Source: Lunularia cruciata (taxonomy: Eukaryota > Streptophyta > Marchantiopsida > Lunulariales > Lunulariaceae). Taken from it: a stretch of DNA of 64,000 bases. The notes beneath the pieces are model-generated. The model ran no database searches, was not told where the DNA came from, and was given only the letters and a program-made list of their open reading frames with translations. Made by a program: the position numbers and the translations under genes. This document shows, in pieces, positions 31,501 to 58,108 of the stretch. The DNA lies in NCBI GenBank assembly GCA_948567375.1, contig OX419759.1, positions 48,078,593-48,142,592 on the forward strand, read 5' to 3'. The first letter of the stretch is position 1, and each line of letters begins with the position of its first letter.

Positions 31501-31502
31501 TC

Positions 31503-32570: not shown

Positions 32571-32597
32571 CTTCTCCTCCTTGGTAAAATTTGGACC

Positions 32598-33371: not shown

Positions 33372-33404
33372 GGTGATGTTAGCCTTGTGGCTACCAACAT
33401 CTCC

Positions 33405-33959: not shown

Positions 33960-34020
33960 AAGTTGTTTGTGATGGTTTGAAGTGGATCCTTTGGAGGAGG
34001 TGCAAGAACTGGAGCAACTA

Positions 34021-34665: not shown

Positions 34666-34674
34666 CTTAACCCC

Positions 34675-35986: not shown

Positions 35987-37740
35987 GTGCAGGAGTGGAA
36001 GGTTGGGACTGAGAATGATTTTTGAAGGTAGGGCTTGCTTGAGAGTGTGTGGATAGGGAGAAAAGTTCCCATAGGAATGTGAAGAGGGTTTTGTGAGGAC
36101 AGCAAGAAGGAAATTTTTGCAGGAATGTAAAGGCTGGAGAAATGCATGAGTTGAAAGCTTGGACAGAGGGGAGATTGATGGAATGTAAGGGCAGAACTGT
36201 GAAGGGATTTGGAGAGGTGCTGGAAGGCAATTTTCCCAAGATTGTGAAGGAGTTTGGTGAGGTGCAAGAAGGCAATTTTCACAAGATTGTGAAGGAATTT
36301 GGTGAGGTGCAGGAAGGCAATTTTCAAATGAATGTGAGGGGTTTTGTGAGGATAGCAAGAAGGCAAATTTTTGCAGGAATGTGAAGACTGGAGAAATGAG
36401 TTGAAAGCTTGGACCAAGGGGAGATTTATCAAATGTAAGGGCTGAAGAGGAGTTGGAAAGCTTGGACAGAGGGGAGATTTATTGAATGTAAGGGCTAGAG
36501 AGGAGTTGGAAAGCTTGGACATAGAGGAGACTATGCATGACATAAAACAAAGAGGAGGATTTCTGAAATGTGAGAGAATGCCTGATCTGGCTGAACACAG
36601 AGGAGACTTTGCTAACATAAAACAGAGAGGAGGATTTCCAAAATGTGAGAAAATGCCTGATTTGGCTGAACATGGAAGAGGGTGTGCAAGACATGAAGGG
36701 TAATGCTTTGAGAGAATACCTGGTCTGGCTGATTAGGGAAGAGGACATGAAGGGTAATGCTTCAAAGGAAGACCTGAAGAGAGAGAAGAAACTCTAGAGG
36801 GTTTGGACAAGAAAAGGAGAGGAATTGTGAGAAAGAGGGAAGGTATTGGAGAAGTGGTTGCATAGGAGAGTATTTTTGAAGGAGAAGAGACCTGGTTGTG
36901 CAAGAGTTTAAGAGTTTGGACAGAGGTAAGGTAGAAGGGAAATCAAGAGAGAGGGTATTGGAGAAGTAGAAGGTAGAGGAGAGTATTTTCAAAGGAAAAG
37001 GATTTTTGGGAGATCTTGTGTTGGATAGAGAACTGGACAGAGAAGGAAGAGATTGGGAAGGAGTTTCAAGAGATATTGTGTTGGACAGAGCCCCGGACAG
37101 CCCTGGACAGAGAAGTGAGAAGGGGAAGGAATTTTTGAGAGATTTTGCACTGGACAGAACTAAGGATGTAATATCAAAAGTGAGGAAGAGTGCTTAAGGA
37201 GAGAGTGAGATGAGTTTTGAGAGGATTGACAGAAAAAAGTTCCTTTTGAGGAGAGTGCTCAAGAGAATGAGATGAACTTTGAGAGGATAGGGTTTTACAA
37301 GACAAGGACTGCACTTTGAGGGAAGAATTGTGACTGATCAGGAGACATCCAGGAGAAATTTTTGAGTTTGTTGTGAAGGTTTGAGAGTGAGCCAAGAGAG
37401 ACAAACAGAGAGGAGTTTTTTAACTTTATAGTGAGGACCAGGAGAGTTGGAGACAAAGATCTTTTGAGGTTTAGAGAGGACTGAGCAGGAGAAAAGCAGA
37501 AAATTCAAAGCTTGTAATGATGGCTCAAAGCAAAGCAAGAGAACTGGACACAATAGAGTAGTTCTCGAAGGTTGGGGAATGGCTGATGTTGGGCAGAAGA
37601 TAGAGAGGCCATTTTCTTGAAGGTGATGTGAAGGTCTGATGCTGAAGTGATAGGGCAGACAGAAGAGAAGGAGAGGCTTTGAATGCTGAGTGGTGAGTGA
37701 CAATTTGATAAAAAAGAAGGAGTTGAGAAGATTGTCTGCA
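35987..37740 (+). repeat. purine-rich arm right of gypsy G1
   Basis: About 1.75 kb in which the plus strand is dominated by A and G. The minus strand has the same Ser/Leu/Pro/His-rich pseudo-reading in several frames as the plus strand of 26.66-29.1 kb. It contains a 45-bp tandem repeat and a duplicated unit of about 75 bp near 36,535-36,685 (ataaaacaaagaggaggattt...cctgatctggctgaacac). No supported gene. Confidence 0.7.
36213..36350 (-). repeat. 45-bp tandem repeat, three copies
   Basis: gaggtgc(t/a)(g)gaaggcaatttt starts at about 36,214, 36,259 and 36,304. On the minus strand it would encode a 15-residue repeat (for example PSQSCENCLLAPHQT), but given the strand-biased composition I treat this as a minisatellite. 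Confidence 0.85.
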
Positions 37741-38387
37741 TGTGATTGGGCAATTTTGGATGCTCAGCTGGAGTGTCTCGGTTGCCCAGGTGATAAATTA
37801 GGAATGGCTACTCCATAGAAAAGAGTTGTTTGTCTTGTTTGACTTATAGCTGTATGACTGGTTGAAGAGAATGATTCATGAACAGATAAATGTATTCTGA
37901 ATTATGGATGTTGTCAAGGGAAGGGCTGCATTTAGGAGCTCTTGGTCTAGTCTATATGATTGAACAGTTCAGTCATAGATACAGCCAGGTTTGATCACCA
38001 TTAGTTGCTAGTGGCTATTTCACAAGTCTCACCAGAGCCGTCTTAGGGATCTGTCCGAGCCAAGAGCCAAACCCACAGACCCGAACATAAAATAGAACTG
38101 GAGGTGATACTTTATAGGAGTAGAGCTACAAGGCCAAACACATTCAAACACAATTGAATGCTATAGATCAACTTTAGGCTACAAGATCCAACATACAAAC
38201 CCTGGGGGGGAAACCTACCCTAGGAACAATGAGAGCAACCTGACCTATTGGAATGAGCCTGCTAGCCGTACCGCAAAATGAAGAGAATATCAAACTTTGC
38301 GAAGACCCAAGTCATTAACACCAATTGCAACTAAGCACGAGCAGCCAGATGCCTTGTGCATTCTTGAGGACAAAACCCCATGACACC
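37741..38387. other. unassigned sequence between the purine arm and gypsy copy A
   Basis: No supported gene. At about 38,388 the sequence switches abruptly to a match with 45,090-45,110 (tgtaataccgtagctagtcc), which is the broken end of gypsy copy A. The flanking side does not match either copy. Confidence 0.5.
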
Positions 38388-39414
38388 GCCTGTAATACCG
38401 TAGCTAGTCCAGTGCTAATCCCACCCAACAACTGCAATAGATATATCCCCTCTACTGGATATTGTAAAGCAACAAATGTGGTATCCAGAGATGTCAAAGT
38501 AATCAACTTTGGAGGCTCATCCTCACACTCATCTACCGATGGTACAAAGGCTCCACTCCAATCCTATTGCACCAACTGATCTGCATGCTCCTGTAATGCT
38601 TCCTCTGAACTCCATAATGGAACATCCAAGGTAGATGGAACAATCCCACTTGTACTCCAAACCGAGTGATCTCCTCTAGTACAAGAGTATCCTTTGCATG
38701 GGTGTTCCCCTCCAACAAGTCACCGGACCAAGTAATTGCACCACTAAAAGCTAAAACTGATGTTGCCATGGTCCCGTACTGTAGTGAGCCAAGATTGCCA
38801 CAATTGAAGCATACTAGTAGGCGATAAACTTGTCCCTCACCAGATTGCCAACCTGGTCTATAGGAGGTTGTCTCCTCCTAATAGTCAATACTGAAACCCA
38901 TGGGGTCTAACATTGTCCCCTCAACTAGCACATCATATGACTCAGCTATTGTCGCAATAGCTTGAGTTGTCACCACCAAGCTATCAATCGGATGACCAGG
39001 CTGAACCTAAACAACAAGCTCTCCACGTGTGATGTTCTATGTCAAACCACCATCTAGAGATGTTTGGATCTGAAATGGACACCTCTCCACATTGGTCTTT
39101 CGTAACTCTAGACCAACAATTGGATCCTTCCCAAACATAAGGGATTGTGCACTAGAGTCTAACAAGATTCTCTATGGTGTAAAGACCTTCCCTGAAGGTC
39201 CCACCAAATGGAAAATCTCCCTCTGGTTATCCAATAGGACAACACTAGGTGTGAACTGTGCTCTCTCAAAGGCTGGTCTAGTTGGCACCTCCTCTAGTCT
39301 AGCCGTTGCTACCTGCCATAAACCACTGGTTGCTGAATAGATCCCGTACTCCTCAACCAAGTTAGCTCCACTACCAACCACCTCTCCTCTACTAGTAGGA
39401 GCCACATCATCTTT
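38388..39414 (-). mobile_element. gypsy copy A, left part: protease to methyltransferase motif I
   Basis: Parallels 45,090-46,085 of copy B. It retains TPSVVLLDN at the protease start (about 39,255-39,230), TWSGDLLEGNTHAKDT in the linker (about 38,735-38,690), and YLLQLLGGISTGLATVLQA, methyltransferase motif I, at about 38,450-38,393. It breaks off just after motif I. The right part of the same element is 50,775-54,051: the 5-bp sequence tcttt at 39,410-39,414 is repeated at 50,775-50,779, flanking the R1 element that split it. Confidence 0.85.
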
Positions 39415-40490
39415 TGTGACAACCCGGCAAATATCACTTTTGCGGTAATCAAGTAAGTAAAGTTTGTTCCCGCAAAGATACGACTCAAAAATTTCCAAAT
39501 ACAAGGCAAAGTAACAATTCTAGTTCTTCTTGGTTGTGTCTTTAATCTCTCAAGTAAAAACTACATCGAGAAGAGAGTAACAAGCTCACAATCTTGACAA
39601 CTTGTCACAAATACACACACACATAATCACAACATAGCAAATTTTGTCCAAACAACTCTTGATTGTGATTCTCCCAAAGACGGCACTTCACCATGAAAAC
39701 AACTTTGCCTTAAAATTTTGTTCTACCCCTCCACTGAAGGCACAACTTCCTTGATCAAAATTGCTTCACATCAACTTCAAGCTGCCCTCACAAATGTAGA
39801 ATACTACCAACACTACAATTCCTCTCAGATCTATCAAGGCATTGCTTCAATTGCACTTCACTCAAGATCCAACACACAGAGTAAAAATCAAGGTTGTGTA
39901 ATCTAACATCCAACAAGCACACTGACTTGCACTTCAAATTTTGCTACACACTCACAAACACACACACAGAGTTGACACTTGAAATTAAGCTCAAGTGATG
40001 AGCACTGAAAACAACACTTCACTTTATCTATCTTCAGAAATGAATACCGAACCACATATGACTTCGAATGCCACTCTTAAATAGTGAAGCAAATGATAGT
40101 TCTAACAACTAAGTGATGAGCACTGAAAACAACACTTCACTTGATCTATCTTCAGAAATGAATATTGAACCACATATGAATGCAAATGCCACTCTTAAAT
40201 AGTGAAGCAAATGATAGTTCTAACAACTATACCATTCTACAACAACTCTTCTAACTTGCAGATCCAAAATGACAATACATCTCTTCATATCTGCCTCTTC
40301 AAATCTCAAAACTGTTACTAATCCAATCCGATGTCTACTTCTTCCTTGGCTTTCAATCCCAAAGTAACTTCACTCACTACTACTCTATCATCGGGTTTCA
40401 CAACTCCTTATTCTTCTACCAATTCTAACATCTCTCCTTCCTGATCTGCAATTCCTTTAGTGGATAATCCATCTAACTCCTTATCTCCCA
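39415..40490 (-). mobile_element. R1 short-form element, left part, split by gypsy copy B
   Basis: Starts TGTGACAACCCGGCAAATATC at 39,415, the R1 right end in reverse orientation. It continues through the conserved 3' region (reverse complement of 8,040-8,828) and breaks at 40,490 within ...tctccca. The rest, 49,817-50,774, ends ggtaccaca. The joined length is about 2.0 kb. The flanking tcttt duplication proves that this R1 inserted into gypsy copy A. Confidence 0.9.
39993..40228 (+). repeat. 118-bp tandem duplication inside R1
   Basis: aagtgatgagcactgaaaac begins at 39,993 and again at 40,111; both units include the ctcttaaatagtgaagcaaa box (reverse complement of the TATTTAAG element). So this R1 copy has two TATTTAAG boxes. 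Confidence 0.9.
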
Positions 40491-40595
40491 TGTTGTGCGT
40501 ATAAACATTGCTACACAACATACATCACTGTCAACATCATACACTATAGAAGCACAACTCACACATAAGTCATACATAGACTCTAAAGTGCCACA

Positions 40596-40612
40596 ATCGC
40601 CCCCCTAGCTGG
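40596..40612 (-). other. copy B polypurine tract
   Basis: Minus-strand agctaggggggcgat followed at once by TGTGGCAC, a plausible PPT/3' LTR junction. The putative LTR beyond it is only 105 bp. Confidence 0.5.
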
Positions 40613-40767
40613 CGGTTAGGTCCCTCTAACTCCAGATAGCCATCTACTCTTAGTATATGGTATACCCTCTAATGGGCAAAGATCAGGAGGCCAGGTGCTA
40701 TGGAGCCCCATCGTTAGTCGCCTGTCTGCAATCTATACCATATAAAGAATGAACTAGCTATAGGTCA

Positions 40768-40905
40768 AGTACATCTAGGACATAACCATTGTCCTTGAGG
40801 AACCACCATGAGGGGAGGAGTCATACATGCCATATGCCATCCTCTTGAACAGCTATCACACACTAACATAGTAGCAGCTCTACCAAAAGAGCCACATAAC
40901 ATACA
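40768..40905 (-). pseudogene. PHD finger at the C-terminus of the copy B polyprotein
   Basis: Chromatin-reader zinc finger. The segment has CMLCG, then LVCDSCSRGWHMAC, then GQWLCPRC: the C4HC3 pattern with the GWH(x)xC core and the terminal WxCPxC typical of PHD fingers that read histone H3 tails. It is open with no internal stop and comes after the integrase C-terminal segment, which contains HVRNCAPCHLP (about 40,995-40,960). A frameshift separates them in this copy. In chromoviruses this position holds a chromodomain, so an analogous targeting role is a reasonable inference. It could be a RING or another treble clef, but GWHxxC...WxCPxC favours PHD. Confidence 0.8.
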
Positions 40906-40999
40906 CCTCAAGCTTGCACGTACAAGTGCCAAGGTCCATAGTACCATCAATGTTTGGAAGGTGGCATGGTGCACAATTGCGCACATGATCCTTCCAAAC

Positions 41000-42433
41000 A
41001 ACACTATCATGTCCTTCTAACACAAGGACTCCAGATGGCAAAACCTCACGCACTCTCAAGATAGTGCGGCCTGTAGAAACATCAAGTGTCATCGGTGTTG
41101 TCTGTTGTAGATATACGTAGTCGCCTCAATGAAATCAACAAATCGAGGGTCTATAACCTCCTCCTCGAATGGTAGCATAGCATAAAGTATCTCTATGCTG
41201 AGCAATCGCCAAGTTCTCAAAGGCCATCGGCATCACTCTCCGAAAGATCTCTACCCGCTGAGAACATGCGCTCATCCATACATCGTGGTCATCCAAGTCC
41301 AAAACTACAGTATCATCTCAATAAATGGCTGTAGGTAAATCAGGATCTCGTCCACAGAGTAGAAATTATGGAGAGAAGGATGCTAAGGAGGCTTGCTAGC
41401 TGAACCGATAGCCCATGGCCAACCAAGGTAACTAGAGATCCCAATCTCCCAAGTGGCCTCTCTACAAACCATACTTTTGCAATCCTCTCTTCACCGTCTG
41501 AATCACTCTCTCTGCTAAGCCATCTGCCTCAGGGTGATCTCAAGATGTAGTACGATGATCAATCAAAGCCTTGTCACACAAGACCTGAAACTCCCCCAAG
41601 AACTCTGTACCTTGATCAGTCAAAACCTCAGCTGGTGCACCAAAATGACTAAGAACTCGATCCAGGAACGAGTAAGCTGTCCCTTCACTAGACTTGTCAA
41701 GAAGTGCCACCAACTCAATCCACTTGGAGAAGTACTTTACCATCACCAAAACATGCCGATGATGTCTCACAGTCAGCGGTAAAGATCTAGCAAAGTCCAA
41801 ACTCCAACGGTAACCCAATCCCATGATAGGTAATGGGTGTAACTGTGGCGTAGGAGCATTGAATGATGCTCTAACTCGGTCACAAACCACACATCTGGCA
41901 ACAAACTGCTATATCGTGATCTGCATACCATGCCACCAATAATGACTCTAGAGTAAGCTATATGTACGCTTTACTCCAAAATGTCCTAGGTCCTCATGAG
42001 CATGATGGACCAACTGTGGTCTATGAGATGGAAGTGGTACTACTCGCACTCTACCATCCTCCCATACACGCAAAAGGTGTCTACACTCCAATCTGAACCG
42101 TCTGGCTTGCTGAAGAACATGGTCTCTCTCCTTGGCCCCAACTGTGCCACCCACAACACCAGTGCAAAGATAAGCAATCACTAAGACATCATCATGAATG
42201 TCTTGCTGAACTGTACCAATATCTTCACTCTTTGGATCTGTGACCTCAATAACTCCTCCTGTATGCGCTGAGAGAGATACCACCAAAGCCTCTAAAAATA
42301 TACACAAAAAGGCCGATGCATGCCAACTTAGCACCATCTCCTCATCTGTCTCACCATGCCAACGTGCTCCGGTCTGATCCTGCTGGCTGGGACATGGGTT
42401 TCTACTCAACCCATCCGCATCACGATTCACCAC
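41000..42433 (-). pseudogene. copy B integrase
   Basis: Zinc region: HHAHEDLGHFGVKRTY at about 42,000-41,950, then ARCVVCDRVRA near 41,895. Catalytic core: WSLDFARSLPL at about 41,805 (first Asp), VLTDQGTEFLGEF at about 41,640-41,600 (second Asp), then, past a stop, HPEADGLAERVIQTVKR at about 41,535-41,485 (Glu). So all three DD(35)E residues are present. The C-terminal segment (about 41,110-40,940) holds TGRTILRVREVLPSGVLVLE, an SH3-like gypsy C-terminal fold candidate. Several stops. Confidence 0.85.
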
Positions 42434-42764
42434 TCCAGGTCTGTGAACAACCGTGAAATCATACTCCTATAAAATCAGAGCCCATCATGCAAGCTTCCCT
42501 AAAAGCTTGTCGAACTCGATCAACCACTTCAGCGGCTGATGATCAGTGATGAGAGTGAAGGGGTTACCAAATAGGTAACATTGGAAATGTGCTACTGCCC
42601 AAACTGCTGCCAAGCACTCTCCCTCATATGAACTATACTTCGCCTCCGCTGAATTGTTGGAGCGACTAGCATAGGCCACCACAAACTCCTTCTCCTCATC
42701 ATCATGCTGGGTGAGCACCGCTCCAAGCCCCAACATACTCCAATCAGTGTGAACCTGAAATGGT
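42434..42764 (-). pseudogene. copy B RNase H
   Basis: VHTDWSMLGLGAVLTQ (first Asp), YSSYEGECLAAVWAVAHF (Glu) and TLITDHQPLKWL (Asp) lie in order at 42,755-42,520, with YDFTVVHRPGVVNRDADGLSR after a stop. That last is the usual gypsy RNase H end, reading directly into the integrase. Catalytic residues are intact. Confidence 0.9.
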
Positions 42765-43640
42765 TATCCCCTGATTGGTCTCCTCAAAATAGGAGCAAAT
42801 GTCAACCTCTGCTTGAGCTCTACAAAAGCTCTCTCCTGCTCATCTCCCCAACACCACTCCTGTGTAAGCTTGGTCAGCTTCGTCAAGGCCTTGGCAATGG
42901 CACAAAATCCTCTAACATAGCGGCGATAAAATTTTGCCAACCCAAGGAATGCTCGCACTCTGCTCACATCCGTAGGCCGAGGAATACGTGCAATAGCCTC
43001 CACCTTGGTCTGCTGAACACCAAGTCCTCCGGGGTAGATAGTGTGACCCAAATACTCTTCTTGCTCGTGGAAGAACCTACACTTCCCATGATGTAATTTG
43101 AGTCCATGAGATCTCAACCTCTCAAACACCTCCAACAACTGTCTCTCATGCTCCTCACAATAGTGCTATAAACCAAAATGTCATCAATATAGCACCGAGC
43201 AAACCCAATCCAGCTAGGATCCTATCTATGACCCTCTGGAATTCAGCAGGAGTGTTCTTTAACCCAAATGGTAAGAACCTCCACTGATATAACACATCCG
43301 TGCCGTGAGGATCAATAGCCCAAAATGTTGTCTTGGACTTATCCTCCTCCCTGATCAGCAACTGATGATATCCTGCTCAAAGATCCAAAGTACTGAAGAC
43401 CTTTGCATGCCCAATCGCACCAAAAAATCTCCTCCGGTGTAGGCATGGCATACCAATCAGCCTTGGTGTGTCGGTTGATAGGATGGTAATCTCCACACAT
43501 CCGCCTATCTGTATAGTTGCCATGCGTATCCTTCTTGGCTGGCATCATTGTCGCTAATGCATACTCTCCATGTGAAATCTCCACCAAACCAGCCTCAAAT
43601 AGGTCACTACTCAAGCTCTGAATCAATGTCCTCTCCATAT
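42764..43640 (-). pseudogene. copy B reverse transcriptase
   Basis: Pieces 43,638-43,339, 43,361-43,155 and 43,138-42,764 cover the RT: MMPAKKDTHGNYTDRRMCGD, then LYQWRFLPFGLKNTPAEFQR, the intact catalytic box YIDDILVYS (YIDD at 43,180-43,191) and YLGHTIYPGGLGV, FLGLAKFYRRYV. Two frameshifts near 43,390 and 43,175 and a stop near 42,764 kill it. Confidence 0.9.
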
Positions 43641-44111
43641 CACTATATCGATAAGGACGTCAGAAAACTGGTGTGTTGCTAGTCAACTCAATCCGTATAC
43701 CAGGTCCCTTTAGAGCACCCAAATCCTTCATACTGAAGGCAAAACAACTTGTGTGACTCCTCAAGAACCTCCAAACACTCTGTCTTTCCTCTCCAGTAAG
43801 CTTGGGTCCATGATCTGGCTCCCAAGTATCCTCTGTAACAATAGTAGGAGTGGAAGACGTACTGACTGACTGCTACACTGGGCCCTTGGGAGCAATAGTG
43901 TCATGCTCCCGACCACTAGAGGTCCCAAAACTCCCTCCACTCTGGCTGCAAGCTCCACACATCCTCTGGCTGCATCCCATGTGGACCAAGGGTGTAATCC
44001 AAGTAGCCCACGCTCACCTAGATGGACTCCAAGTAGACCACTCTCCCTAGTAGCTATTGGATGTGTCCCAAGAATACCATGTCCACTCGGTCCATCGCCC
44101 CCAGCATGTGC

Positions 44112-45194
44112 CTAAATTGTCTCAATAGGCACAGGGCTCACAAGTGTCCAAGTGGTGATGCCTATCAAGTGCATCCTATGCTGCTCTGCCAAGCCAAGGC
44201 TCACAATCCAGGTCAAACAGTTCAGGTCCATAGCCTGTCCTAACACTTGACGCCTGGATACCTCTGACACAGCATGAATAGCGGTAATATTGGTGCAAAA
44301 ACCCATTGCTCGCTCTCTCTCATCAGCGTTGGGCTCCACCAATTGCTGTATCTATGAGTCCCAAACAAGTCTAGGTCCTCCCTCTCGAAAAGCACGAGAG
44401 CTTGGGAAACTCATGAGTGTGGGAAATGCGGCTCTAGGCTGTCCAACTAGGTTCACCACTGCCATAGGTGACCTATCAGCCACTACCACTGTCTGAGACT
44501 GACATCCAACATCCAAGATATCATCAACAAGGATGTGGTCAAGTTGCTGAATCCCATCATAAGCATGATGTAGAACCTCTCTGGGTAAGAGATTTGTCCA
44601 CCAAAGACAAAGACGATGAGCCCGTGATCCCACTTTGGCTGCATCTAACAATACAGCAGGTCCCATCAAAGAATGGACCTAATGTGTACTCGCCACCACT
44701 CTGGTGCAAGAATCACCCAACAAAGGAAAGTTCTCCATAAGGTAAGCTGGAGAAACAGACTGATAAACCTAGAGATGTTGTAGTATCCGTAACATCTCCC
44801 AAAACACACCAGAACGAGGATCCTGAAGACCCAAACCGTGGCCCGCACATGTATGTCCCTGACATGGCCATCCAGAAATCACCAAGTGAATAGGCCCATG
44901 TCTCTCTAGGTCATGAGCCCCCAGTAAGGAAATGTCTCCTGGTAGGGCCTTTTGGTAACCTCTGACTACTGACATTGGTAATAACTCCGAATACCGATAG
45001 GCCAAGTGTGCCACATGATGTAGAGAGACTCGCCTAGCAGTCTCATCTCTCTTTACATACAAGTACCTCTGTACTCGGATACCCGCTTGTAACACCGCAG
45101 CTAGTCCGGTGCTGATCCTACCAAACAACTCCAATAGGCATATCCCCTCTACTAGATATTCCCAAGCAATGAGTGTGGTATCCAGAGGTGTCAA
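44112..45194 (-). pseudogene. C5 cytosine DNA methyltransferase domain in the gypsy polyprotein
   Basis: Would transfer methyl from S-adenosylmethionine to cytosine C5. Motifs in canonical order: I, ICLLELFGRISTGLAAVLQ (45,143-45,087); II region, YLYVKRDETA; IV, VISGWPCQGHTCAGHGLGL with the catalytic Cys codon at 44,862-44,864; VI, AYLMENFPLLGD (ENV is ENF, Glu codon 44,734-44,736); VIII, SRAHRLCLWW (about 44,630-44,604); IX, ADERERAMGF (about 44,327-44,298); X, RRQVLGQAMDLNCLTWI (about 44,255-44,205). The target-recognition stretch lies between VIII and IX. All pieces share one frame, also the protease frame, broken only by stops at 44,769, 44,679, 44,352 and 44,112. It is not the circularly permuted DRM order. 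I cannot assign a DNMT subfamily. Confidence 0.88.
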
Positions 45195-45431
45195 AGCAAT
45201 CGCCTGTGGAGGCTCATCCTCACACTCATCTCTTGATGGTACAAAGACTCCACTCCAAGCCTATTGCACCAACTGATCTGCATGCTGCTGCAATGCCTCC
45301 TTTGAACTCCACAATGGAACAATCCCACTTGTACTCCAAAGCCGAGTGATTTCCTCTGGTACTGGAGTATCCTCTGCATAGGCGTTCCCCTCCAACAAGT
45401 CACCAGGCCAAGTAACTGCACCACTAAAAGC
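45195..45431 (-). pseudogene. protease-methyltransferase linker of copy B
   Basis: Same frame as the protease and the methyltransferase. It reads AFSGAVTWPGDLLEGNAYAE, then WSTSGIVPLWSS and, after one stop, DECEDEPPQAIALTPL. The corresponding linker is kept in copy A (TWSGDLLEGNTHAKDT), so it belongs to the element and not to a later insertion. Confidence 0.7.
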
Positions 45432-45968
45432 TTAAACTAATGCTGCCATGGTCCCGGACTGTAGTGAGCCAAGACTGCCACTACTAGAGCGTACTAGTAG
45501 GTGACATACCCGTCCCTCACCAAACTGCCAACCAGGTCTATAAGAGGCTATCTCCTCCCAATAGTCAATGTTGAAACCCATGGGGTATAACATTGCTCCC
45601 CCAACTAGCACATCATATGACTCAGCTATCGTCGCAATAGCCTGAGCTCTCACCACCGAGCTATCAGTCGGATGACCAGGCTGAACTTGGACAACAAGCT
45701 CCCCACGTGTGATGTAATGTGTCGAACCACCACCTAAAGATGTCTGGATCTGAAATGGACACCTCTCCATATCGGTCTCCCGTAACTCCAAACTGGCAAC
45801 TGCAGCCTTCCCCAACATAAGGGGCTGCACACCAGAGTCTAACAAGACTCTCTGTGGTGTGTAGACCTTCCTTGAAGGTCCCACCAAACAAAAAATCCCC
45901 CCCTGGTTATCCAATAGGACAACACCAGGAGTAAACCGCGCTCTCTCACAGGCCGGTCTAGCTGGCAA
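45432..45968 (-). pseudogene. copy B aspartic protease
   Basis: VLLDSGVQPLMLGKAAVAS, with the active-site DSG codons at about 45,833-45,841, is a normal retropepsin loop. YDVLVGGAMLYPMGFNIDYW at about 45,620-45,560 is the later flap-side motif. The frame stays open for 178 residues and, past one stop, enters the methyltransferase linker in the same frame. The protease would release the methyltransferase or keep it fused to RT; no cleavage site can be predicted. Confidence 0.8.
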
Positions 45969-46384
45969 CTCCTCCAGTCTAGCCGCTGTTGCCTGCCATA
46001 AACCACTGGTGTTGAACGGATCCCATGCTCCTCAACCAAGTTAGCTCCACTACCAACACCTCTGCTCTAGTAGTAGGAACTGAACCATCCCTACTCTCAC
46101 ACAACGTGGCAGCCAACCGGAATACTGGGGCTGGGTCAACTCCCAATGTAAACATATCACTGGCCGAAAACAAAGGACGCCGCATAATCAGCTGAGCCGC
46201 CCCCAACATCATGCTAGACGCAGTCTCTGTAGTAGTAGGTGGCTGACTAGCAGGTAGTCCATCATGCACTCCATCACCACCTACCACATGCACTGGGACG
46301 TCTAGGAACCATGGATGTCATCTGCAATGCCTTAGATAGCATGAAAGACTAGGGAAGTCTGACCTGTCTCCCAACCTCTCCTCT

Positions 46385-46905
46385 CTATGGGTCCAACTCC
46401 ACTGATGCTCCTCTAGGCTCTGGAGCACGTACTGCATTCCTAGTCACTGCTGTAGATGCATCCACCTGTGCTGCTCCGCACATGAAGTCCAAAGCATCTC
46501 TATCACCAGCATATGAGGTGGAAGCCTCAGCACCCAAATCTGATCTCCTCTGAGCAATAGCCATACTAACCAATCTCTGCTCCAACGGCTCAATCCGAGT
46601 AGCCATAGCTGTGTTAGAAGTAAGGGCAGGTACTGCACCCCTACTAGGTGTAGATCCTCTACCACCACCTCTACCACCTCGTCCTCCATGAACAGGAGCT
46701 CCTCTACTACCAGCCATAGCAGCCCTACCACTTCGTAACTCCGGGTGTAGGTCAAAACACCGATCACTAGTGTGACCAAATCTGTGGCAATGCTCCCACT
46801 GCCTCTGTGTTGGCTGTGATGCACCAGAGGTATCAGGTCCGCTGCCCTGAGTTCACTCTCTCCTATGGTGAGGTCCACTACAAGTCCAACAAGCAACACC
46901 ACCAC
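46385..46905 (-). pseudogene. copy B nucleocapsid with two damaged zinc knuckles
   Basis: First knuckle at about 46,880-46,850: CWTCSGPHHRRE, then a stop where copy A has Cys. Second at 46,757-46,798: WEHCHRFGHTSDRC, where copy A has CEHCHRFRHTSDRC, so the first Cys is Trp here. After them comes a Gly/Arg-rich RNA-binding-type region (GGRGGRGGGRG) and the stretch ATRIEPLEQRLVSMAIAQRR. Each knuckle is broken once in this copy. Confidence 0.8.
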
Positions 46906-47360
46906 TCACTGGCTGTTGCTGACCCGAAAATGAGGGTAAGGGTCTAACTCCACTAGGCCCTCCACTCGCTCCATAAGATCTGGGCTGTCCACCCTGTCCT
47001 CAAAAACCAACTGGGCGTGGTGCACTCTGCTGCACTCTAGAAGAAGTCACAACCGTGGATGAGGTCTCCCTACCAAATCCAGATGTCATCACTCTCTCCT
47101 CCACCATGTTGAGCTCAATATGCTCAGCCAAACCAAAGACTACTGCCAAAGTGGGCAAAGTAGCCTGCAACAACGTAGCATCACTAACTCTACTTCGCAA
47201 CTCCTTGTCCAGTATCCCATACCAAAACTGAAACCCTGGCCTCAGTAACTCCCTAAGTGAAACTGATCAGCCGCCTCATGCAAGTGTATGCCTTACGTAG
47301 GCTCTCTCCAGCCTTCCGCTGGAACTCTTGCAAGCTCCTCAGCTTGTCAGTCCGCACTCC

Positions 47361-48080
47361 CTAGTAGTTCTGCCTCAAACGTGGAAAGAACTCCACCATG
47401 GGGTTAAACCCCGATACCACACCACCTCCTGCAGCGGTACCTCCACTCGTAGTAGCACTATCTCCAGCTAGTGCACCTCCACTAGCTCCACGAACACTAC
47501 TTGAGCTAGAACTTGTAGGTACAGCCAATCTACTCTTGGCCACCGAGCCTGAAGTGATGGAGACATAGTGTGGAGACCAAAACTGTCTCCATAACTCAAT
47601 CTCCTCCAAATGAGCTCTCCTAAACTCATGGTAGTCATCCATTGGCGGACCCTCTAAATGCTGAAACAACCCCTTCCATGCCATGAAGGGTGTGAACAAA
47701 GTCGGGTTCCGCATCTGTTGCAGATCACACCAACAGTCAAACTCCTAGATGAAGTCATCCAACTCAATGGTACCCACTGTACCTGAGTAACGCCTAGGGC
47801 CTTTGGAGGCCCCATAAATCTCGTCCACGTCCCACAACAACGATGTCGACATACCAAGTGCACTCTCAACTGAATCAGCTCCTATGTCAAACTCCAACTC
47901 AGAGTCAATCTCCTCCCTCATTGGGACCTGAGATACAGGCTGATACCGAGCACCACTCCAAGTAAACCCACTGCGTACTATAGAGCTAACTCTTCTGGAA
48001 TCTCCAAAGAACTCCGTTGTGACCAAGTAACCACAATAGCAAACCCGAACCACCAACTGCAACCGCAAGTACCCCACCAA
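47361..48080 (-). pseudogene. copy B gag capsid domain
   Basis: Segments 48,080-47,745 and 47,714-47,361 flank a single stop. They contain GTVGTIELDDFI, FTPFMAWKGLFQHLEGPPMD and DYHEFRRAHLEEIELWRQFW, the gag core, followed by a Ser/Gly-rich linker. Copy A at 52,590-52,258 retains the same region without that stop (GTIELDDFIQEF). A probable start is within 48,080-47,950, but no ATG is decisive. Confidence 0.75.
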
Positions 48081-48420
48081 GTGCCAACACCACCACGTGC
48101 CAACACCAAATAAACACCACCCACTAATGTAACTCTACCAAGATAACTACACTAGGGGAAAGGGCAACTTGTAACCTACCATCATAACACGCACTCTCAT
48201 GGTCTGCATGTCATCACTTCTTGCCTCACCGGAGAGAAACAAAGGTAGTCTGATTGGTCATCACTCCAGCCTCACCATCGAGAGAGCACACCAGAGCACC
48301 AACGCTCAAAAGTCAAGGCACCTCACACAAACGTGGTGCACAAACAGGAAGTAGAGAATGGAGGGGGTCCAATCACAAGAAATCTAAACAAAAACCCTCC
48401 ATCTCATAACACAACACGGG

Positions 48421-48436
48421 ACTGACTCTGCCACCA
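48421..48436 (-). other. copy B primer binding site
   Basis: Minus-strand TGGTGGCAGAGTCAGT lies two bases from the LTR end. Plant initiator-tRNA-Met sites read TGGTATCAGAGC, so 10 of the first 12 bases agree. Copy A has the equivalent at 53,100-53,115 (TGGTGGCAAAGTCAGT). Confidence 0.65.
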
Positions 48437-48438
48437 TT

Positions 48439-49816
48439 TGGCATTTGACATAAGAGCAGTTCGTATCTAAGTCCTAAGCTACCAGGATCACCAAGAATGG
48501 GATCAAACTGCCTCTCCTAGCCAAAGCTACATGTGTATAGATAACAATGGCACACTCACTATGACAAAAAGTGAGGGTGGACCAGTTGGCTAGGGCACCA
48601 CTCTAGGAACAAGAGATCTAGGGGTCAAACCCTGTTGCGCACAATCTAGCAGGAAAGGCAGATTTTGCCAACCAATGACCAAGATCTACTCTAAACTAGC
48701 TAGCCTCACGCCAGCAAGCTAGCTTGCTGGCCCTTTTAGGCCTTCGTAGCCTCTCATAGCCCATAGCCCTTTGCCTCGAAGCCTCTAAACACCAAAATTT
48801 AGCCAAATGAGGCCTTTCTTGTTGCCACTTTGAACCTCCTCCAAAATTGGCAAAACTTCTCCAAATCTGTAAAACTCCTCCAAACTAGCAAAACTCCTCC
48901 AAATCTGGCCAAATAGCAAAAAATCCTCCAATTCTGGCCAAAATTTGACATAAATCTGATGTAAACCCTAAAGATGGTTGTCCGCCAAATCCTTTGCTAA
49001 CTTTCCACTCGAGCCAAATTGACAAAACAGGTTTTTCCAAATCACAATTTCATGAGAAGAGCTTCCCAACTCCACCTTCAATTTGACTTTCTGAGCCCAA
49101 CTCACATCAAATTGGTCTTGCCTTCACCTCTTGAGCTCAAAATCACAACACTCCTCAAAAATTGCTCCTTCTTTGCTCAAAATTTGGCCAGCGCTTCCGC
49201 ACACCATCTGCCTAACTGCCAAATCTGCATCAACTAAACAAGTTTTTGCACACTCGAGAAACACAGAACTTGAATTGAGCTACCACGGTCCACCGAGCTT
49301 GGAGATACCACCAACACTCAAAGTTCTGCACCCGATTTCCCCTTGACTTCACTTCTATGATGTAATCAGATTGCTTAACACTCTCAACTCAACTCAACTC
49401 AACTCAGATCAATACTTGATCTGTCACTCTATAAATTGCCAACAACTGTGCATTGATTACAGTCAAGCCACACCCACTCACGCATAGAGAATCCAGGTGA
49501 CGCTCGCCGGCCTCTGTCCACCGTAGCCAGGAACTCGAAGGCTCAACATCAGAGAAGTGAGCTCTCTGGAGCTCACTTCAAAACTATACCCCCTTGACTT
49601 GAGCTAGCATTGAAACCCTAACGGTCCCGCTGATGGCACACTCAACGGTGCGAACGGTGCAAAGTGACGGTGGGCCCCACCGTGAAGTCAGTATCCCGAA
49701 CACCAAATCTGACCGTTGGAAAGTAGTCTCTGAGATACTACTAAAATAACTCTAACTACTATTACTGGAACTCCAATGTCCAAGCATCTAGATGTGGCAC
49801 TACAAATGGCGTGACA
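48439..49816 (-). repeat. copy B 5' LTR
   Basis: In element orientation it starts TGTCACGCCATTTGTAGTGC and ends TGTCAAATGCCA just before the PBS. Copy A has a shorter version (53,118-54,051) with the same two ends. Length 1,378 bp against 934 bp in A. Confidence 0.7.
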
Positions 49817-50774
49817 CCCAACCCACTCTTCTCAAATACCTCCGATGGTAATTCTAAAGACATCTACACTCCTATGTCATCTACTTCTGGTTTCATTATT
49901 ATCAATTCCTTTGGTAATTCTATTATATCATCATCAAGAATTATAATTGAAAACATGGGTACATTATCTACACCTTCAATTTGTAACTCACTTTCCCATA
50001 ATTACTCATGTAACTGACCCAAAGACACTTACAGTCTGATCCTCCACTTCGGGTTCATTCACTGCTGTTATTTCTCTTCTAATTCTATCTTATCTTCAAT
50101 CAGAATTGAAATTGAAGTCATGGGTATCCTAACTATCTTCTTTCCCTACTCTACTTCCTCTAATCCCCCCGGCAAAACACCCAAAATCACCTTCATTGCA
50201 CTCCGAGGTCCAACTACCTCGGGTTGAATCATATTTGTCTTGAGGCAAAGTCTTAAGACCCAAAGTCATGTAAACCCAAAGTCCAAAGTTTGAAGTCCAA
50301 AGTCTGAAGACACCAACCCAAAGAACCTCAACCCGAAGTCCTTCAACTACTTTGTATATCTACTCCCAAAACTTCAAATGCTTGTAACTTTTTTTATAGA
50401 CCTTCAAACTCTTCAATTTTGATAGCAATGGAAAGCCTTGAACAAGATGCTTCCAATGCAATATAGCATGTGTGATTTGGAGCATTTTTTAATGAGATAC
50501 AGCCCTTGCAATAATCCTGACCTGTAACCTCCATTTCAATGCAAAGAAACCTTCCTTCAGCGTTTGGTCGGAGTTTTTCCCTCCTCTGACATGAACTAAG
50601 CTTCTTTGGGTTTGATCCAATCCGAGTCCTTCTTCCTCCAATACAAAGTCAACATCCTCAGGCCTTATCAAAACATAGGTTTCCCCTCATTTCTTCTCTA
50701 TTTGGTTTCAATTTGGTTTAAGCAAGGCACTTCTTCTTTAAAACTTGTCGAAAATGAAAAATGTGGGTACCACA
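49817..50774 (-). mobile_element. R1 short-form element, right part
   Basis: Continuation of 39,415-40,490 after the gypsy copy B insertion. It ends tgggtaccaca at 50,774, the R1 left terminus in reverse orientation, followed by tcttt (50,775-50,779), the second half of the target duplication. Coding remnants of the R1 C-terminal tail region are present near 49,830-50,000 on the minus strand. Confidence 0.9.
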
Positions 50775-53700
50775 TCTTTACTCCCACAAAGCGTGGTAGC
50801 CAATTGGAACACTAGAGTTGGGTCAACTCCTAATGTAAACATGTCACTTGCTGAAAACAAAGGGCAACGCATAATCAGCTGAGCCTCCCCCAATATCGTG
50901 CTAGACTCAGTATGTGTAGTAGCATGTGGCTGACAATTAGGTAGTCCATCATGCACTCCATAACCACCTACCACACCTGCACTATGATGTCTAGGAGCCA
51001 TGGATGTTGTCTACAATGCCTCAGATAGTGTGAAAGACTAGGGAAGTCTGACATTTTTCCCAACCTCTCCTCTCTGTGGGTCCAACTCCACTGATGCTTC
51101 TCTAGGCTCTGGAGCATGTACTACACTCCTAGTTACTACTACATATGCATCCATCTGAGTTGCTCCACACATGAAGTCCAAAGCATCTCTATCACCAGCA
51201 TGTGAGTGATGCACAACACCCGAATTTGATCTCCTCTGAGCAATCGCCATACTAACCAATCTTTGCTCCAGCTGCTCAATCCAAGTAGCCATAGTTGTAT
51301 CAGAATTAAGGGTAGATATTGCACCCCTACTAGGTGTAGATCCTCTACCACCACCTCTACCACCTTGTCCTCCATGAACAGGAGCTCCTTTACTACCTCT
51401 ACTGCCATAGCAACCCTACCACTCCGTAACTCCGAGTGTAGGTCAAAGCACCGATCACTAGTGTGACGAAATCTGTGGCAATGCTCACACTGCCTCTATG
51501 CTGGCTGTGATGCATCCAAGGTATTAGGTCCACTGCCTTGAGTACACTCTCTCCGATGGTGAGATCCACCACAAGTCCAGCAAGCAACACCACTACTCAC
51601 TTGCTGCTACCGACCCAAAAATGAAGGTAAGGGTCTAACTCTACTAGGCCCTCCACTCACTCCATAGGATTTAGGCTGTCCACTCTATCCTCAAAAACCA
51701 ATTGGGCATGGTGCACTCTGCTGCACTCTAGAAGAAGTAACAGTTGTGATGAGATCTCCCTACCAAATCCAGATGTCACCACTCTCTCCTCCACCATGTT
51801 AAGCTCAATATGCTCAACCAAACCAAAGACCACTACTAAAGTAGGCGTAGTAGCCTATAACAACGTAGCATCACAAACTCTACATTGCAACTCCTTGTCC
51901 AATATCCTATACCAAAACTGAACTGCCTGGGCCTCAGTAACTCCCTGAGTGAAACTGATCAGCCGCCTCATTCAAGTGTATGCTTCAAGTAGGCTCTCTC
52001 CTGCCTTCTACTAGAACTCCTGCAAGCTCCTTAGCTTGTCAGTCGGCACTCTCTGGTAGTTCTACCTCAAACACAAGAAGAACTCCACCATGGGGTTCAA
52101 CCCCGACACCTCCACTCGTGGTAACACTATCTCCAACGAGTGCACCTCTACTAGCTCCACCAACACTACTCGAGCTAGATCTCATAAGTATAGCCAATCT
52201 ACTCTTGGCTACCAAACCTAAAGTGATAGAGATATAGTTTAGAGACCAATACTATCTTCATAACTCAATCTTCTCCAAATAAGCTCTCTTGAACTCATGG
52301 TAGTCATCCATTGGTGGACCCTCCAAATGTTGAAACAACCCTTTCCATGCCATGAAGGGTGTGAACAAAGTCAGGTTCCGCATCTGATGTAGATCACACC
52401 AGCTATGAAACTCTTGGATGAAATCATCCAACTCAATGGTACCCATTGTACCAGAGTAACACCTAAGGCCTTTGGAGGCCCCATAAATCTTTTCCATGTC
52501 CCACAACAACGGTGCAAACACGATAAGTGCACTCTCAACTAGATCAACTCTTGTGTCAAACTCCAACTCAGAGTCAATCTCCTCCCTCACTGGGACCTGA
52601 GATACAAGGTGATATCAAGCACCACTCTGAGTAAACCCACTGTGCACTATAGAGCTATCTCTTTTGGAATCCCCAAAGAACAAAGTAACTGCAACCACAA
52701 CCGCAAACTAAAGCAAGTACCCCACCAAGTGCCAACACTAACCAAGTGCCACCAAGTGCCAACACCAACCAAGCACCACCAAGTGCCAAAACTAACGGAA
52801 CATTGTCCACTAATGTAACTCTAACCGAGACAACTACACTAGGAGCAAGGGCAACTTGTAACGTACAAACCCTAAATGTATTCTCATGGTTTGTAGGTCA
52901 TCACTTCCTACCTCACTGGAGAGAAACAAAGATAATGTGACTGTTCATCAATCTAGCCTCACTATCGAGAGCACACCAGAGCACAAATGCTCAAAATTCA
53001 GGGCACCTCATACAAACACGATGCATAAATATGAAGTAAGGAATGGAGGAGGTCCAATCCCAAGAATGCTAAACACTCCATCTCATAAATAAACACAAGA
53101 CTGACTTTGCCACCATTTGGCATTTGACATAATTGGAGTACCAATCTCCTTCTTGAGCTACAAGGATCACCGAGGATTGGATTCAAGTTTTTTTTGCCAA
53201 AATCTAATGTAACTCTTTCACAAAATCTTATGTAAATCTGATATAAAATCTAACATAAAGCCCTAAAAATGGCTGACCACTAAACCCTCAACTAACTCTT
53301 CACTCGAGCCAAATTGGAAAAATAGGTTTTGTCTAATCTTCAATTTGTGAGGATCTGCTCCCAACTCCACCTTCAATTTTAGTTTCTAAGCTCAACTTGT
53401 AACAAATTGATCCTAAGCTCAAAATCACAACTACCGCTTGCAAATTGCTTCTTCCATGGCTCCAAATTTTTCCAACACTTCCGCACACACTCTCTCTCAA
53501 GGAAATATGAACTACTCAATCGAGACACCAAGATCCATCAAGCTTGGAGATACCACCAACACTCGCAGTTCTTGCACCCAATTTCCCCCTAACTCACTTC
53601 TTTGATATAATTAGATTGTTTAACTTGAATCAATTGAACTCAGATCAATACTTGATCTGATATTCAACAACTTGCAAACAACTGGGCACTGATCATAGTG

Positions 53701-54051
53701 AAGCCACATCCACTCTAGCTAAGAGACTCCATGTGACACTTGCCGGCTTTATGTCCATTCTAGCCAAGAACTCGAGGGCTCAACATTAGAGAAGTGAGCT
53801 CTCTAGAGCTGCACTTCCAGGGTATACCCTTGATTTCAACCTAGGTCTCATCCCAATGGTCCCACTAATGGCACACTTGATGGTGCGGACGGTGCAAGTG
53901 ACGGTGGGCCTTGCCATGAAGTCAACACCCTAAATCTAAAATTTGACCATCAAAAAGTAGTCTATGAGTAATTGCAAAAATGTCTCTAACTACTATCATT
54001 GGAACTCCAATGTCCAAGCAATCTAGATATGACACTACAAATGATGTGACA
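50775..54051 (-). mobile_element. gypsy copy A, right part: 5' LTR, PBS, gag, knuckles
   Basis: Parallels copy B from 46,090 to 49,816. Gag pieces lie at 52,590-52,258 (GTIELDDFIQEFHSW, FTPFMAWKGLFQHLEG). Both knuckles are intact at the residue level: CWTCGGSHHRREC (51,544-51,582) and CEHCHRFRHTSDRC (51,448-51,489). The LTR is 53,118-54,051. At 54,052 the sequence changes to G1-type gag, so A sits in, or is fused to, that gypsy. Confidence 0.85.
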
Positions 54052-54992: not shown

Positions 54993-55917
54993 TGAGCAGT
55001 GGTACCCACAGTTTTCATTTTGGACGAGTTTTGAAGAAGAAGTGCCTTGCTGAAACCAAATTGAAACCAAATAGAGAAAAAATGAGAGGAAATTTGTATC
55101 TTGATCAAGCTAGAGGAAGTTGACTTTGTGTCAGATGAAGACGGACTCAGCCAGGATTGAAAGAGGACAGACCTAAAAGAGGAATGGAAGTTACAGGTTG
55201 AGATTCTTGCAGGAGCTATATCTCAATGTTCACAAGTCCAAATCAAGCGTGCTATATCTCGTTAGAAGCGACTCGTCTAGGGCTTTCCGTTGTCACCAAA
55301 ATCGCAAAGTTTAGAGGTTTGTAGAAGAAGAAACAAGTATTTGAAGTTTTAGGAGTAACTATACAAAGTAGTTTAGTGTCATCAGACTTCGGTCATTGGA
55401 CTTTGGTTTTCGGACTTCGGACTTCGGACTTTAGGTGTACACAACTTTGGGTTAAAAGCTTCTTTGCTCAAGACAAAGATGAATGTATCTGAGATAGTCG
55501 GACCTTGGAGTGCAACGAAGATGACTACGGGAATCTTACCAGAGGCATTAGAGAGAGTTAGGATAAATAAAGAATAGATAGTTAAAATACCCATGACTTC
55601 AATTTCAGTTCCAATTGAAGATGGAACAGGAATTGAAGGAGAAGTAGCAGTAGTAAATAAACCCGAAGTGCAAGATCAAACCGTATGGGTCTTTGGGTCA
55701 GTAACATGAGAGATTGTGGGAATGTGGGTTACAAATTGAAGGCGTAGATAGTGTACCCATGCTTTCAATTACAATTTGTGATGAGGATATAGTAGAATTA
55801 GCAAAGAAATTGATTGTAATTAGACCCGATGTCGCAAAAGTAGGAATACAAGTGTCATTGGACTTGAGGATTGACATATTAGAGAAGAGTGGGTCAAGAG
55901 ATAAGAATGTAGATGGA

Positions 55918-57825
55918 TGTGACAACCTAGCAAATATCACTTTTGCGGTAATCGGGTAAGTAAAGTTAGTTCCCACAGAGATACGAGTCAGAATTGGTCA
56001 AATACAAAGCAAAGTAACAATTTAGTTCTTCTTGGTTGCGTCTTTAATCTCTCAGGTAGAAACCACACCCAGAAGAGAGTAACAAGCACAAACTCGCAGT
56101 CTTGTCACAAATTAACACTCCTTAATCACAAATCCATCAAATCTTTCCAAACAATCTTGATTGTGATGATTCAGGCTCTCCCAAAAACGGCACTTCACTG
56201 CAAAATGACTTCACCTCAGAATTATGTTCCACCCCTCCACTGAAGGCACAACTTCCTCAATCAAAATTTCTTCACATCAACTTTGCACTACACTCACAAA
56301 TGCAAAATACTACCAACACTACAATTCCTCTCAGATCTATCAAGGCATTGCTTCGATTGCACTTCACTCAGGATCAAACACAAAAAATGAAGATCAAGGC
56401 TACGGAATCCAACATCCAACAAACACTCTGACTTGCACTTTGAATTTCTTCACACACTCACAAACACAATTGCAAAGTTGATACTCGGAATCAAGCTCAA
56501 GCGACGAGCACTGCTTCACAACACTTTGCTTTATCTATTCTCAGAAATAATGAGCACTGAACAATATTTTCCTGCAAATGTCACTCTTAAATAGTGAAGC
56601 AATCGACAGTTCTAACAACTATACCGTTCTACAAAAACTGTTCTAACCTACAGATCCAAAATGACAATGCTCCTCTTCATATCTGCATCTTCAAATCTCA
56701 AATCTGTTACTTCTCCGATCCGATGTCTACTTCTTCTTCGGCTTTCAATCCCAAACCCGAAGTAACTTTACTTCCTACTTCTTTAACCTCGTGTTTCATA
56801 ATTCTTACTTCCTCTACTAGATCTAACAATTCTCTTTCTTGATATGAAATTCCTATCATAATTAAGCCTTCTAAATCTCTATCTCCCGACCCACTCTTCT
56901 CTAAAGTGTCAAATGTCAAATCCGAAGACACCTGCACTCCTATCTCTCTTACCTCGGGTTTAACTTCTATCAATTCCTCTACTAATTCTATTGTGTCATC
57001 ATCAAGAATTGTAATTGAAACCATAAATACACTATCTGCACCTTCAATTTGTAACCCACTTTCTCCTAATCACTCATGTTACTAACCCGAAGACACTTAC
57101 TGTCTGATCCTACACTTTGGATTTATTCACTACTATTATTTCTCCTTCAATTTCTATTCCATCTTCAATCAAAATTGAAATTAAAGTCATGGGTATCCTA
57201 ACTATCTTCTTTCTATATTCTAACTTCCTCTGATCCCTCTGGCAAAACTCCCCAAGTCACCTTCATTGCACTCCGAGGTCTGGCTCCCTATGATTTAGTC
57301 ATCTTCATCTTGAGGCAAAGTCTTTAGACCCGAAGTCATATAAACCCGAAGTCCAAAATACGAATTCTGAAGTCACATTGACCCGAAGACACTTTGACCC
57401 GAAGTACATCTACTCCGGAAACTTTAAATGCTTGTGACTTCTTCTAAAGACCTCCAAAATTTCCAATTTTGGTGGCAATGGAAAGCCCTGAACGAGACTC
57501 TTCCAACGAGATATAACATGCTTGATTTGGAGGTGTGGTCACTGAGATATAGCCCCTGCAAGAATCCTGACCTGCAACTTCTATTTCTCTTTCGGCGTCT
57601 ACCCTCCTTCACGTCTGATCCGAGTTTTTCCCTCCTCTGATGCGAAGTAAGCTTCTTCAGGTCTGATCCAAACCAAGCCCTTCTTCCTCTTACACGAAAT
57701 TGACTTCCTCGGGTTTGATCAAAACACAAGTTTGCACTCATTTCTTCTCCATTTGGTTTCAATTTGGTTTCAGCAGGGCATTTCTTCTTCTAAACTTGTC
57801 CAAAATGAAAAATGTGTGTACCACA
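55918..57825 (-). mobile_element. R1 short-form element nested in the opposite orientation
   Basis: Starts TGTGACAACCTAGCAAATAT and ends TGTGTACCACA, 1,908 bp, flanked by atgga at 55,913-55,917 and 57,826-57,830. The minus strand encodes a 105-residue ORF (57,024-56,707) that starts MVSITILDDDTIELVEELIE and ends GLGLKAEEEVDIG, the R1 C-terminal tail, without an internal stop. Confidence 0.95.
56707..57024 (-). CDS. R1 short-form ORF, 105 residues
   Basis: The best preserved coding remnant of the R1 family. It is acidic (many Glu, Asp, Val, Ile) with motifs DLTFDTLEKSGSGDRDLEG and SYQERELLDLVEEV. The homologous stretch in the full-length R1 at 7,780-8,038 has LSLETLEKSGSTDKDLDR and LDLEREQLNLVEVVGV. 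Coiled-coil-like. Whether the short form expressed it alone is unknown. No recognised domain. Confidence 0.4.
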   Translation of the reverse strand: MVSITILDDDTIELVEELIEVKPEVREIGVQVSSDLTFDTLEKSGSGDRDLEGLIMIGISYQERELLDLVEEVRIMKHEVKEVGSKVTSGLGLKAEEEVDIGSEK

Positions 57826-58100: not shown

Positions 58101-58108
58101 TATTTAAG
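58101..58108 (+). promoter_or_regulatory. TATTTAAG box of R1
   Basis: tatttaag lies about 670 bp from the right terminus. The same box occurs (reverse complement cttaaata) at about 40,075, 40,193 and 56,587 in minus-strand copies, always followed at about 60 bp by gatagataaagtgaagtgtt-type sequence. Conserved position suggests a TATA-like promoter that reads towards the right end, as in an LTR. Confidence 0.4.

Follow-up and report, generated by a model that had tools for sequence, protein, structure and literature searches.

Retrotransposons that carry cytosine-5 (C5) DNA methylases are known from a few protists and charophyte algae, as an earlier reading of the present locus, made by a model from the letters alone (the sequence-only reading), had correctly noted. 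According to the available portions of PMC5890265, a Gypsy element with a DNMT3 enzyme was published for one charophyte, Klebsormidium nitens, and was read as a capture in that lineage; the legend of Fig. 4 assigns it a DIRS-like repeat arrangement. The same portions report that yeast DNA was not methylated by the Klebsormidium enzyme, a result judged inconclusive by the authors, that the SymbioDIRS enzymes methylate genomic CG in yeast, and that the Klebsormidium methylome resembles that of land plants. Self-methylated cDNA was conjectured there to serve as protection or as self-limitation, an idea that the sequence-only reading also put forward. The accessible part of PMC12344493 places DNMT3 members in streptophyte and dinoflagellate retrotransposons, the LTR elements among them being termed Copia, and orchid Gypsy elements carry an RNA demethylase, as stated in part of PMC9289625. 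Adenine methylases were previously known from DIRS elements. The open-access literature fits the expectation that land plants would be a new or little-described setting for an element of this kind, no land-plant report having been found in it; the supplement of PMC12344493 may hold bryophyte cases. Because DNA methylation is a host weapon against transposons, an element that keeps a de novo-type methylase for a very long time presents a paradox.

Anatomy and insertion of the element

The window (the whole stretch of DNA analysed, 64,000 nucleotides from Lunularia cruciata) contains an insertion, here called element A, and two parts, B and C, of an older copy from the same family. The features are as follows, with positions counted from the first letter of the window.

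38386..39400, minus strand: copy B, protease and methylase start of the older copy, 85% identical to 45083-46078
39415..40490, unstranded: left half of the 1.9-kb repeat hit by A (TCTTT duplication at 39410-39414)
40487..40490, unstranded: left target-site duplication of A, CCCA
40491..49816, minus strand: element A, whole insertion, 9.3 kb, TG...CA ends (empty-site comparison with 55918-57825; right end shared with copy C)
40768..40935, minus strand: C-terminal PHD finger (Pfam PHD, E 2.9e-11; P0026 residues 553-608)
41540..41908, minus strand: integrase core (Pfam rve, E 1.1e-10)
42302..42763, minus strand: RNase H (Pfam RT_RNaseH, E 5.6e-30, in 42485-42763; P0013 alignment to 42302)
42764..43566, minus strand: reverse transcriptase (RT) by homology, several frames, YIDD at 43191 (tblastn with P0013)
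43932..44111, minus strand: continuation of the methylase frame past the TAG at 44114 (P0004 aligned to 43932; HPWSTWD common to P0004)
44112..45263, minus strand: predicted DNMT3-like C5 methyltransferase with stops, motifs I, IV, VI, VIII, IX and X (translation, Pfam, PDB ranking, motifs)
45432..46188, minus strand: aspartic protease region, DSG within 45848-45831 (tblastn with P0001, motif position)
46385..47744, minus strand: gag region, split over more than one frame (tblastn, Marchantia P0003 residues 16-275 to 47236-46382; ORFs)
49817..49820, unstranded: right target-site duplication of A, CCCA
49817..50774, unstranded: right half of the 1.9-kb repeat hit by A (TCTTT at 50775-50779)
50775..54051, minus strand: copy C, the other half of the older copy next to B (gag part and 5' end)
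55918..57825, plus strand: uninterrupted 1.9-kb repeat (empty site), flanked by ATGGA

The sequence-only reading had placed a Ty3/gypsy-type polyprotein with an embedded C5 methylase at 44112..45968, and this identification is backed by Pfam, by the RT tree and by unbroken relatives. Translation of the minus strand from 45968 to 44112 yields protease and methylase in a single frame of 619 codons interrupted only by stops, five of them internal (TAA at 45434; TAG at 45263, 44771, 44681 and 44354) and a sixth, the TAG at 44114-44112, forming the frame end. The homologue P0001 aligns with this frame at 60% identity over 644 positions, in a single frame and far from chance. The frame as proposed is retained and its left limit is not: 44112 is only another premature stop, because homology extends to 43932. 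The protease frame is open from 46031. The protease site reads LLDSG, and the methylase motifs occur in the order that had been claimed, namely I (45146-45081), IV (PCQ, 44882-44856), VI (ENF, 44744-44712), VIII (44630-44589), IX (44429-44409) and X (44255-44205). RT with YIDD, RNase H and integrase likewise follow downstream on the same strand, YIDD in a different frame from the methylase and the three domains spread over several frames; the PHD finger C-terminal to the integrase was absent from the earlier list.

On the window pieces, Pfam recognised the methylase as PF00145 (E 1.5e-5, 25 bits against a cut-off of 22), in addition to the matches listed above. RVT_1 matched the RT piece of A at E 5e-6 and 26.8 bits, below the 29.6-bit Pfam cut-off, and the assignment as a probable RT rests on homologues. 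The protease piece had no Pfam match of its own and was called from the DSG motif together with homologues, among them P0017, whose protease scores 26.2 bits against a cut-off of 24.3; that of P0001 is below the cut-off. The coding order protease-RT-RNase H-integrase, with a Gypsy RT, makes A a Ty3/gypsy element by coding region, and the methylase lies within this polyprotein coding region without introns. Copy A is dead, given its stops, its frameshifts and the Cys that replaces the second Arg of motif VIII.

Flanking duplications differ by insertion: CCCA surrounds A, TCTTT the split 1.9-kb repeat and ATGGA the unsplit one. The split repeat itself interrupts an older family copy, whose halves are B and C. 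The window therefore holds two family copies, and A is later than the older one because it lies within the repeat that splits B from C. Copy B shows the link between protease and methylase that had been sought outside A. In copy C, 50773-53186 is 84% identical to 46086-48506, followed by shorter matches to the common end GTGACA. A unit from 39415 to 50774 with TCTTT duplications was considered as the element and rejected, since the 1.9-kb repeat is also present uninterrupted; it is also ruled out by copy C, which has the same GTGACA end as A in a different flank. Within the 1.9-kb repeat, 39993-40228 is a tandem pair of 118-bp repeats, 95% alike. At 54999-58779 the 1.9-kb repeat occurs twice, in opposite orientations, and one copy seems to have inserted into the other. 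Also in the window are a second, distant Gypsy element with RT, integrase and gag-like ORFs (30242-34674, minus strand) and a purine-rich, strand-skewed stretch at 36000-38385 with a CpG observed/expected ratio of 0.11.

Paired LTRs, which the sequence-only reading had proposed to look for, were not found in copy A. The ends of this one copy share no direct repeat, though both are fixed by the empty site, and no direct repeat longer than 31 nt was found inside A among the 20 largest of 57 repeat families. The absence of LTRs brings to mind the Klebsormidium element with its reported DIRS-like repeats; no such arrangement was found in A, a single decayed copy. The primer-site pattern of initiator tRNA-Met, the one tRNA considered, gave three matches against 5.4 expected by chance, and there are no tRNA genes in the window.

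Substitution ratios (dN/dS) were 0.63 between A and B and 0.78 and 0.35 for gag between A and C; these values are uninformative for the window copies because noncoding sequence in an arbitrary frame gives 0.42. Of 26 CG dyads compared between A and B, nine were kept and 16 were CG/TG or CG/CA; between A and C, 12 of 70 were kept and 36 were changed by transition. This decay suggests that the window copies were methylated in the genome, by whatever agent. The CpG value is 0.38 for A and 0.32 for the whole window, so CpG poverty is nothing special to A.

Class, conservation and distribution of the methylase

Class was judged by ranking PDB sequences against P0001. The first 26 of the 37 chains at E<=0.01 were DNMT3A, 3B or 3C (best 3.6e-11), and the other 11 comprised three of DNMT3B, two of HaeIII, four of DRM2, 4onj and 4onq; no DNMT1 or CMT occurred among the 37. 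The chains of 4onj (E 1.2e-6) and 4onq are titled 'DNA methyltransferase' and are presumably tobacco DRM. The order I, IV, VI, VIII, IX, X in the window is not the rearranged order of the DRM type, and the window methylase is a predicted DNMT3-like enzyme with unrearranged motifs.

Conservation was counted in 82 methylase rows, made up of the window and those 81 of 121 matching proteins that span at least 230 model positions. The catalytic Cys is kept in 80 rows (exceptions P0059, a gap, and P0090, Tyr), the Glu of motif VI in all 82, and the second Arg of motif VIII in 80, the exceptions being P0096 and the window (Cys). Glu-Cys replaces Pro-Cys at the catalytic loop in 12 of the 82, for example in Closterium P0157, and does so in more than one clade. 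Two very divergent methylase-RT-integrase proteins, P0106 and P0107, have PCV and PCL motifs and a PHD match below the Pfam cut-off; their relative P0167 has a degenerate methylase remnant ahead of RT in which no PC motif was seen.

A protein-database search, as had been proposed, found relatives of the protease-methylase stretch, the nearest in liverworts. At least 56 proteins match this stretch and at least 68 match the methylase of P0002, with about 8000 candidates sharing most words scored in both searches. The named hosts among them are Marchantia polymorpha, Calypogeia fissa, Sphagnum troendelagicum, S. jensenii, S. fallax and Klebsormidium nitens, to which an RT search added, among the matches listed, Closterium strains and Volvox reticuliferus. 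The RT query was P0062 residues 660-1110, and the methylase-RT clade is known through the best 120 of its 574 matches; the ranking favours methylase-bearing relatives because the query includes about 35 residues of the methylase end. In Volvox P0202 the methylase was detected by a custom model only (1.6e-13, 81 residues at the end of a partial protein) and not by Pfam at E<=0.01. The viral contigs gave one match, L001, with 43% identity in the best segment (query residues 431-490). Two of the database names listed for the protease-methylase matches are 'DNA (cytosine-5-)-methyltransferase' or its start, so these genes are already recorded in public databases.

Several liverwort relatives are better preserved than the window copy. 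Marchantia P0057 is an unbroken predicted protein of 1278 residues with a complete methylase near its end (18 cluster members), and Calypogeia P0004 has a complete methylase domain with part of the protease missing (11 cluster members). The Sphagnum proteins inspected are damaged, P0009 being without motifs VIII and X and P0086 without several stretches. The methylase-RT link recurs in Marchantia P0013 and P0062, each a single predicted protein continuous from methylase into RT, although gene prediction may have spanned a change of frame here. Two ORFs are likely in liverworts because P0004 and P0057 end about 75 residues past the methylase and the Calypogeia RT protein P0108 (33 cluster members) begins with RT. 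The longest contig is 8955 for both P0067 and P0112 and 6232 for both P0080 and P0110, which suggests that each pair, a methylase protein and an RT protein without methylase, represents the two ORFs of one element. Klebsormidium P0098 (KFL_009030040), 46% identical to the methylase of P0002 over 67% of it, is probably the published KnitGypsy-Dnmt3.

Probable joint history of methylase and reverse transcriptase

Trees were built from the RT part alone of the RT-query matches. The quick tree, with 122 rows, had a clade of 91 (SH-aLRT 100) that contained every one of the 36 rows with a methylase. The careful tree used 47 of the 122 rows, with six methylase rows omitted as near-duplicates by no measured threshold, and united all 30 rows that bear a methylase in a single clade of 35 (100/99), which includes Closterium and, on a short fragment, Volvox. 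The rows of this clade that are without a methylase may carry one in another ORF. The window row is placed with those of Marchantia and Calypogeia (100/98) and shares a 100/99 clade with Klebsormidium P0098. The careful methylase tree comprised 51 of the 82 rows, after omission of 27 near-duplicates and of the long branches P0106, P0107, P0124 and P0188; its rows are element methylases, without plant host DNMT3 genes, and many of its deep forks are without firm resolution.

The order RT-methylase-integrase, in which the methylase lies between RNase H and integrase, forms one clade of 11 rows on the RT tree (100/99) and also one clade on the methylase tree (100/99, including fragments of unknown order), corresponding to one change of order among the placed rows. 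Distances in RT and methylase are correlated over 28 elements (r 0.78, reached by none of 10000 permutations), with a methylase/RT rate ratio of about 1.18. The RT of P0124 adjoins the bryophyte group (100/98) and its methylase is very divergent on a long separate branch, through replacement or fast change; joint inheritance thus has at least one exception. On balance, these sequence comparisons favour an acquisition long ago, after which the methylase was jointly inherited and conserved; it looks like an old, jointly inherited part of the element lineage rather than a passenger.

In four further Gypsy proteins (P0183, P0194, P0197 and P0217), Pfam found a Dam adenine methylase domain (E 3.6e-7 to 2.6e-12) located between the protease and the RT. 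The Dam motif is NPPW or NPPF in three of them and NPDF in P0197. They lie outside the C5 methylase clade on the RT tree and do not form one clade there, although a one-clade constraint was not rejected (p-AU 0.243). Like A, they have a DNA methylase in the protease-RT slot and, in P0183, P0197 and P0217, a PHD finger; unlike A, the enzyme is an unrelated adenine methylase and the PHD finger precedes the integrase, whereas that of A lies behind it. No report of adenine methylases in Gypsy elements appeared in the titles and abstract beginnings of the matches listed. That an unrelated methylase occupies this slot suggests a benefit of DNA methylation itself for the elements, with selection for methylating the DNA copy, whichever base is modified.

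Proposed function and comparison with known systems

Element A is read as a dead Ty3/gypsy-type element with a long-conserved DNMT3-like methylase that would have methylated its own cDNA, and with insertion guided by the PHD finger. A probability of about 0.55 is given to this explanation as a whole; the identity part is near certain, and the mechanism, comprising packaging, substrate, timing, benefit and PHD ligand, is the weaker part. The coding order is gag, protease and DNMT3-like methylase, then RT, RNase H, integrase and PHD finger. Produced together with Gag and protease, the methylase would enter the particle and, no later than integration, mark CG sites of the newly made DNA, which would arrive already methylated. 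The PHD finger of the integrase would read histone H3 and steer insertion to chromatin that tolerates such a copy. The PDB chains nearest to this finger are CHD4, KMT2D, PHF12, KMT2C, PHF21A, KDM5B, DPF3 and KDM5A, with ATXR5 slightly lower. Several of these PHD fingers read unmethylated H3K4. A wider reading, held tentatively and at somewhat less than even odds, is that green plants harbour an ancient Gypsy lineage whose replication requires a DNA methylase, set in a slot of its own between protease and RT (DNMT3 in this lineage, Dam in neighbouring ones), together with an integrase whose PHD finger reads histones and with LTR-less ends; such elements would write methylation on their own DNA and read chromatin for its placement.

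Other functions were weighed against this proposal. The methylase might act in trans on host chromatin, altering silencing for the element or limiting its spread, and not on its own cDNA. The PHD finger within the same element and the methylation of genomic CG in yeast by SymbioDIRS enzymes accord with such action, but the finger is on the integrase side, separate from the methylase, and the Klebsormidium methylome is land-plant-like (both literature points from the available portions of PMC5890265); we regard this as rather unlikely. A target in element or host RNA (m5C), serving stability, packaging or escape from RNA surveillance, would suit a methylase that comes after gag and protease, the Klebsormidium enzyme without DNA activity in yeast (inconclusive to its authors, in the same portions of PMC5890265) and the RNA demethylase of orchid Gypsy elements (PMC9289625, in part). 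It is an unlikely target given the DNMT3 class obtained by PDB ranking and the membership of the Dam neighbours in a DNA adenine methylase family.

Glu-Cys in 12 of 82 rows, the loss of the Cys in P0090 and the degenerate P0167 would be understandable if the domain served chiefly as a DNA-binding or structural component of the particle, with a catalytic activity that is secondary or that some lineages have lost; the counted catalytic residues are nevertheless present in the large majority of rows, and such a role is improbable. The window copy is dead and the window copies are without sign of selection, as would be seen if the methylase were a captured passenger, useless to the element. Against this stand catalytic residues conserved in 80 to 82 of the 82 rows, a methylase that is nearly as slow as RT with correlated distances, and the unbroken methylase domains in liverworts, which leave a passenger very improbable. 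Nothing was found for a host DNMT3 gene fragment lying by chance within a degraded Gypsy element: the methylase is in the protease frame with no intron needed, relatives occur in several genomes, and copy B, P0013 and P0062 contradict this reading, whose chance is negligible.

Self-methylation of the element DNA is the preferred reading, and the question is now testable because relatives with unbroken methylase domains occur in Marchantia, a genetically workable land plant. More generally, relatives in green algae and early land plants allow it to be asked why some elements methylate DNA.

Among the known systems, the orchid AlkB Gypsy elements (PMC9289625, in the part available) resemble A as plant Gypsy elements with an extra enzyme that modifies nucleic acids, an active one in the orchid case; unlike the methylase of A, this enzyme is an RNA demethylase encoded in an additional ORF, in Phalaenopsis. 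SymbioDIRS-Dnmt3 of dinoflagellates shares with A a DNMT3 domain in a retrotransposon Pol, with a domain order that varies between its subfamilies, but it uses a tyrosine recombinase, whereas A has a DDE integrase (rve) and target-site duplications (available portions of PMC5890265). KnitGypsy-Dnmt3, described in the same portions of PMC5890265, is alike in having a DNMT3-class methylase ahead of RT, RNase H and integrase. It differs from A in that the nearest relatives of A are in liverworts, that a PHD finger lies behind the integrase in A (P0098 is partial there), that methylase and RT are probably two ORFs in the liverwort group, and that no DIRS-like repeats were found in A. The reading of joint inheritance broadens the published one, in which the methylase was captured in the Klebsormidium lineage (PMC5890265, same portions).
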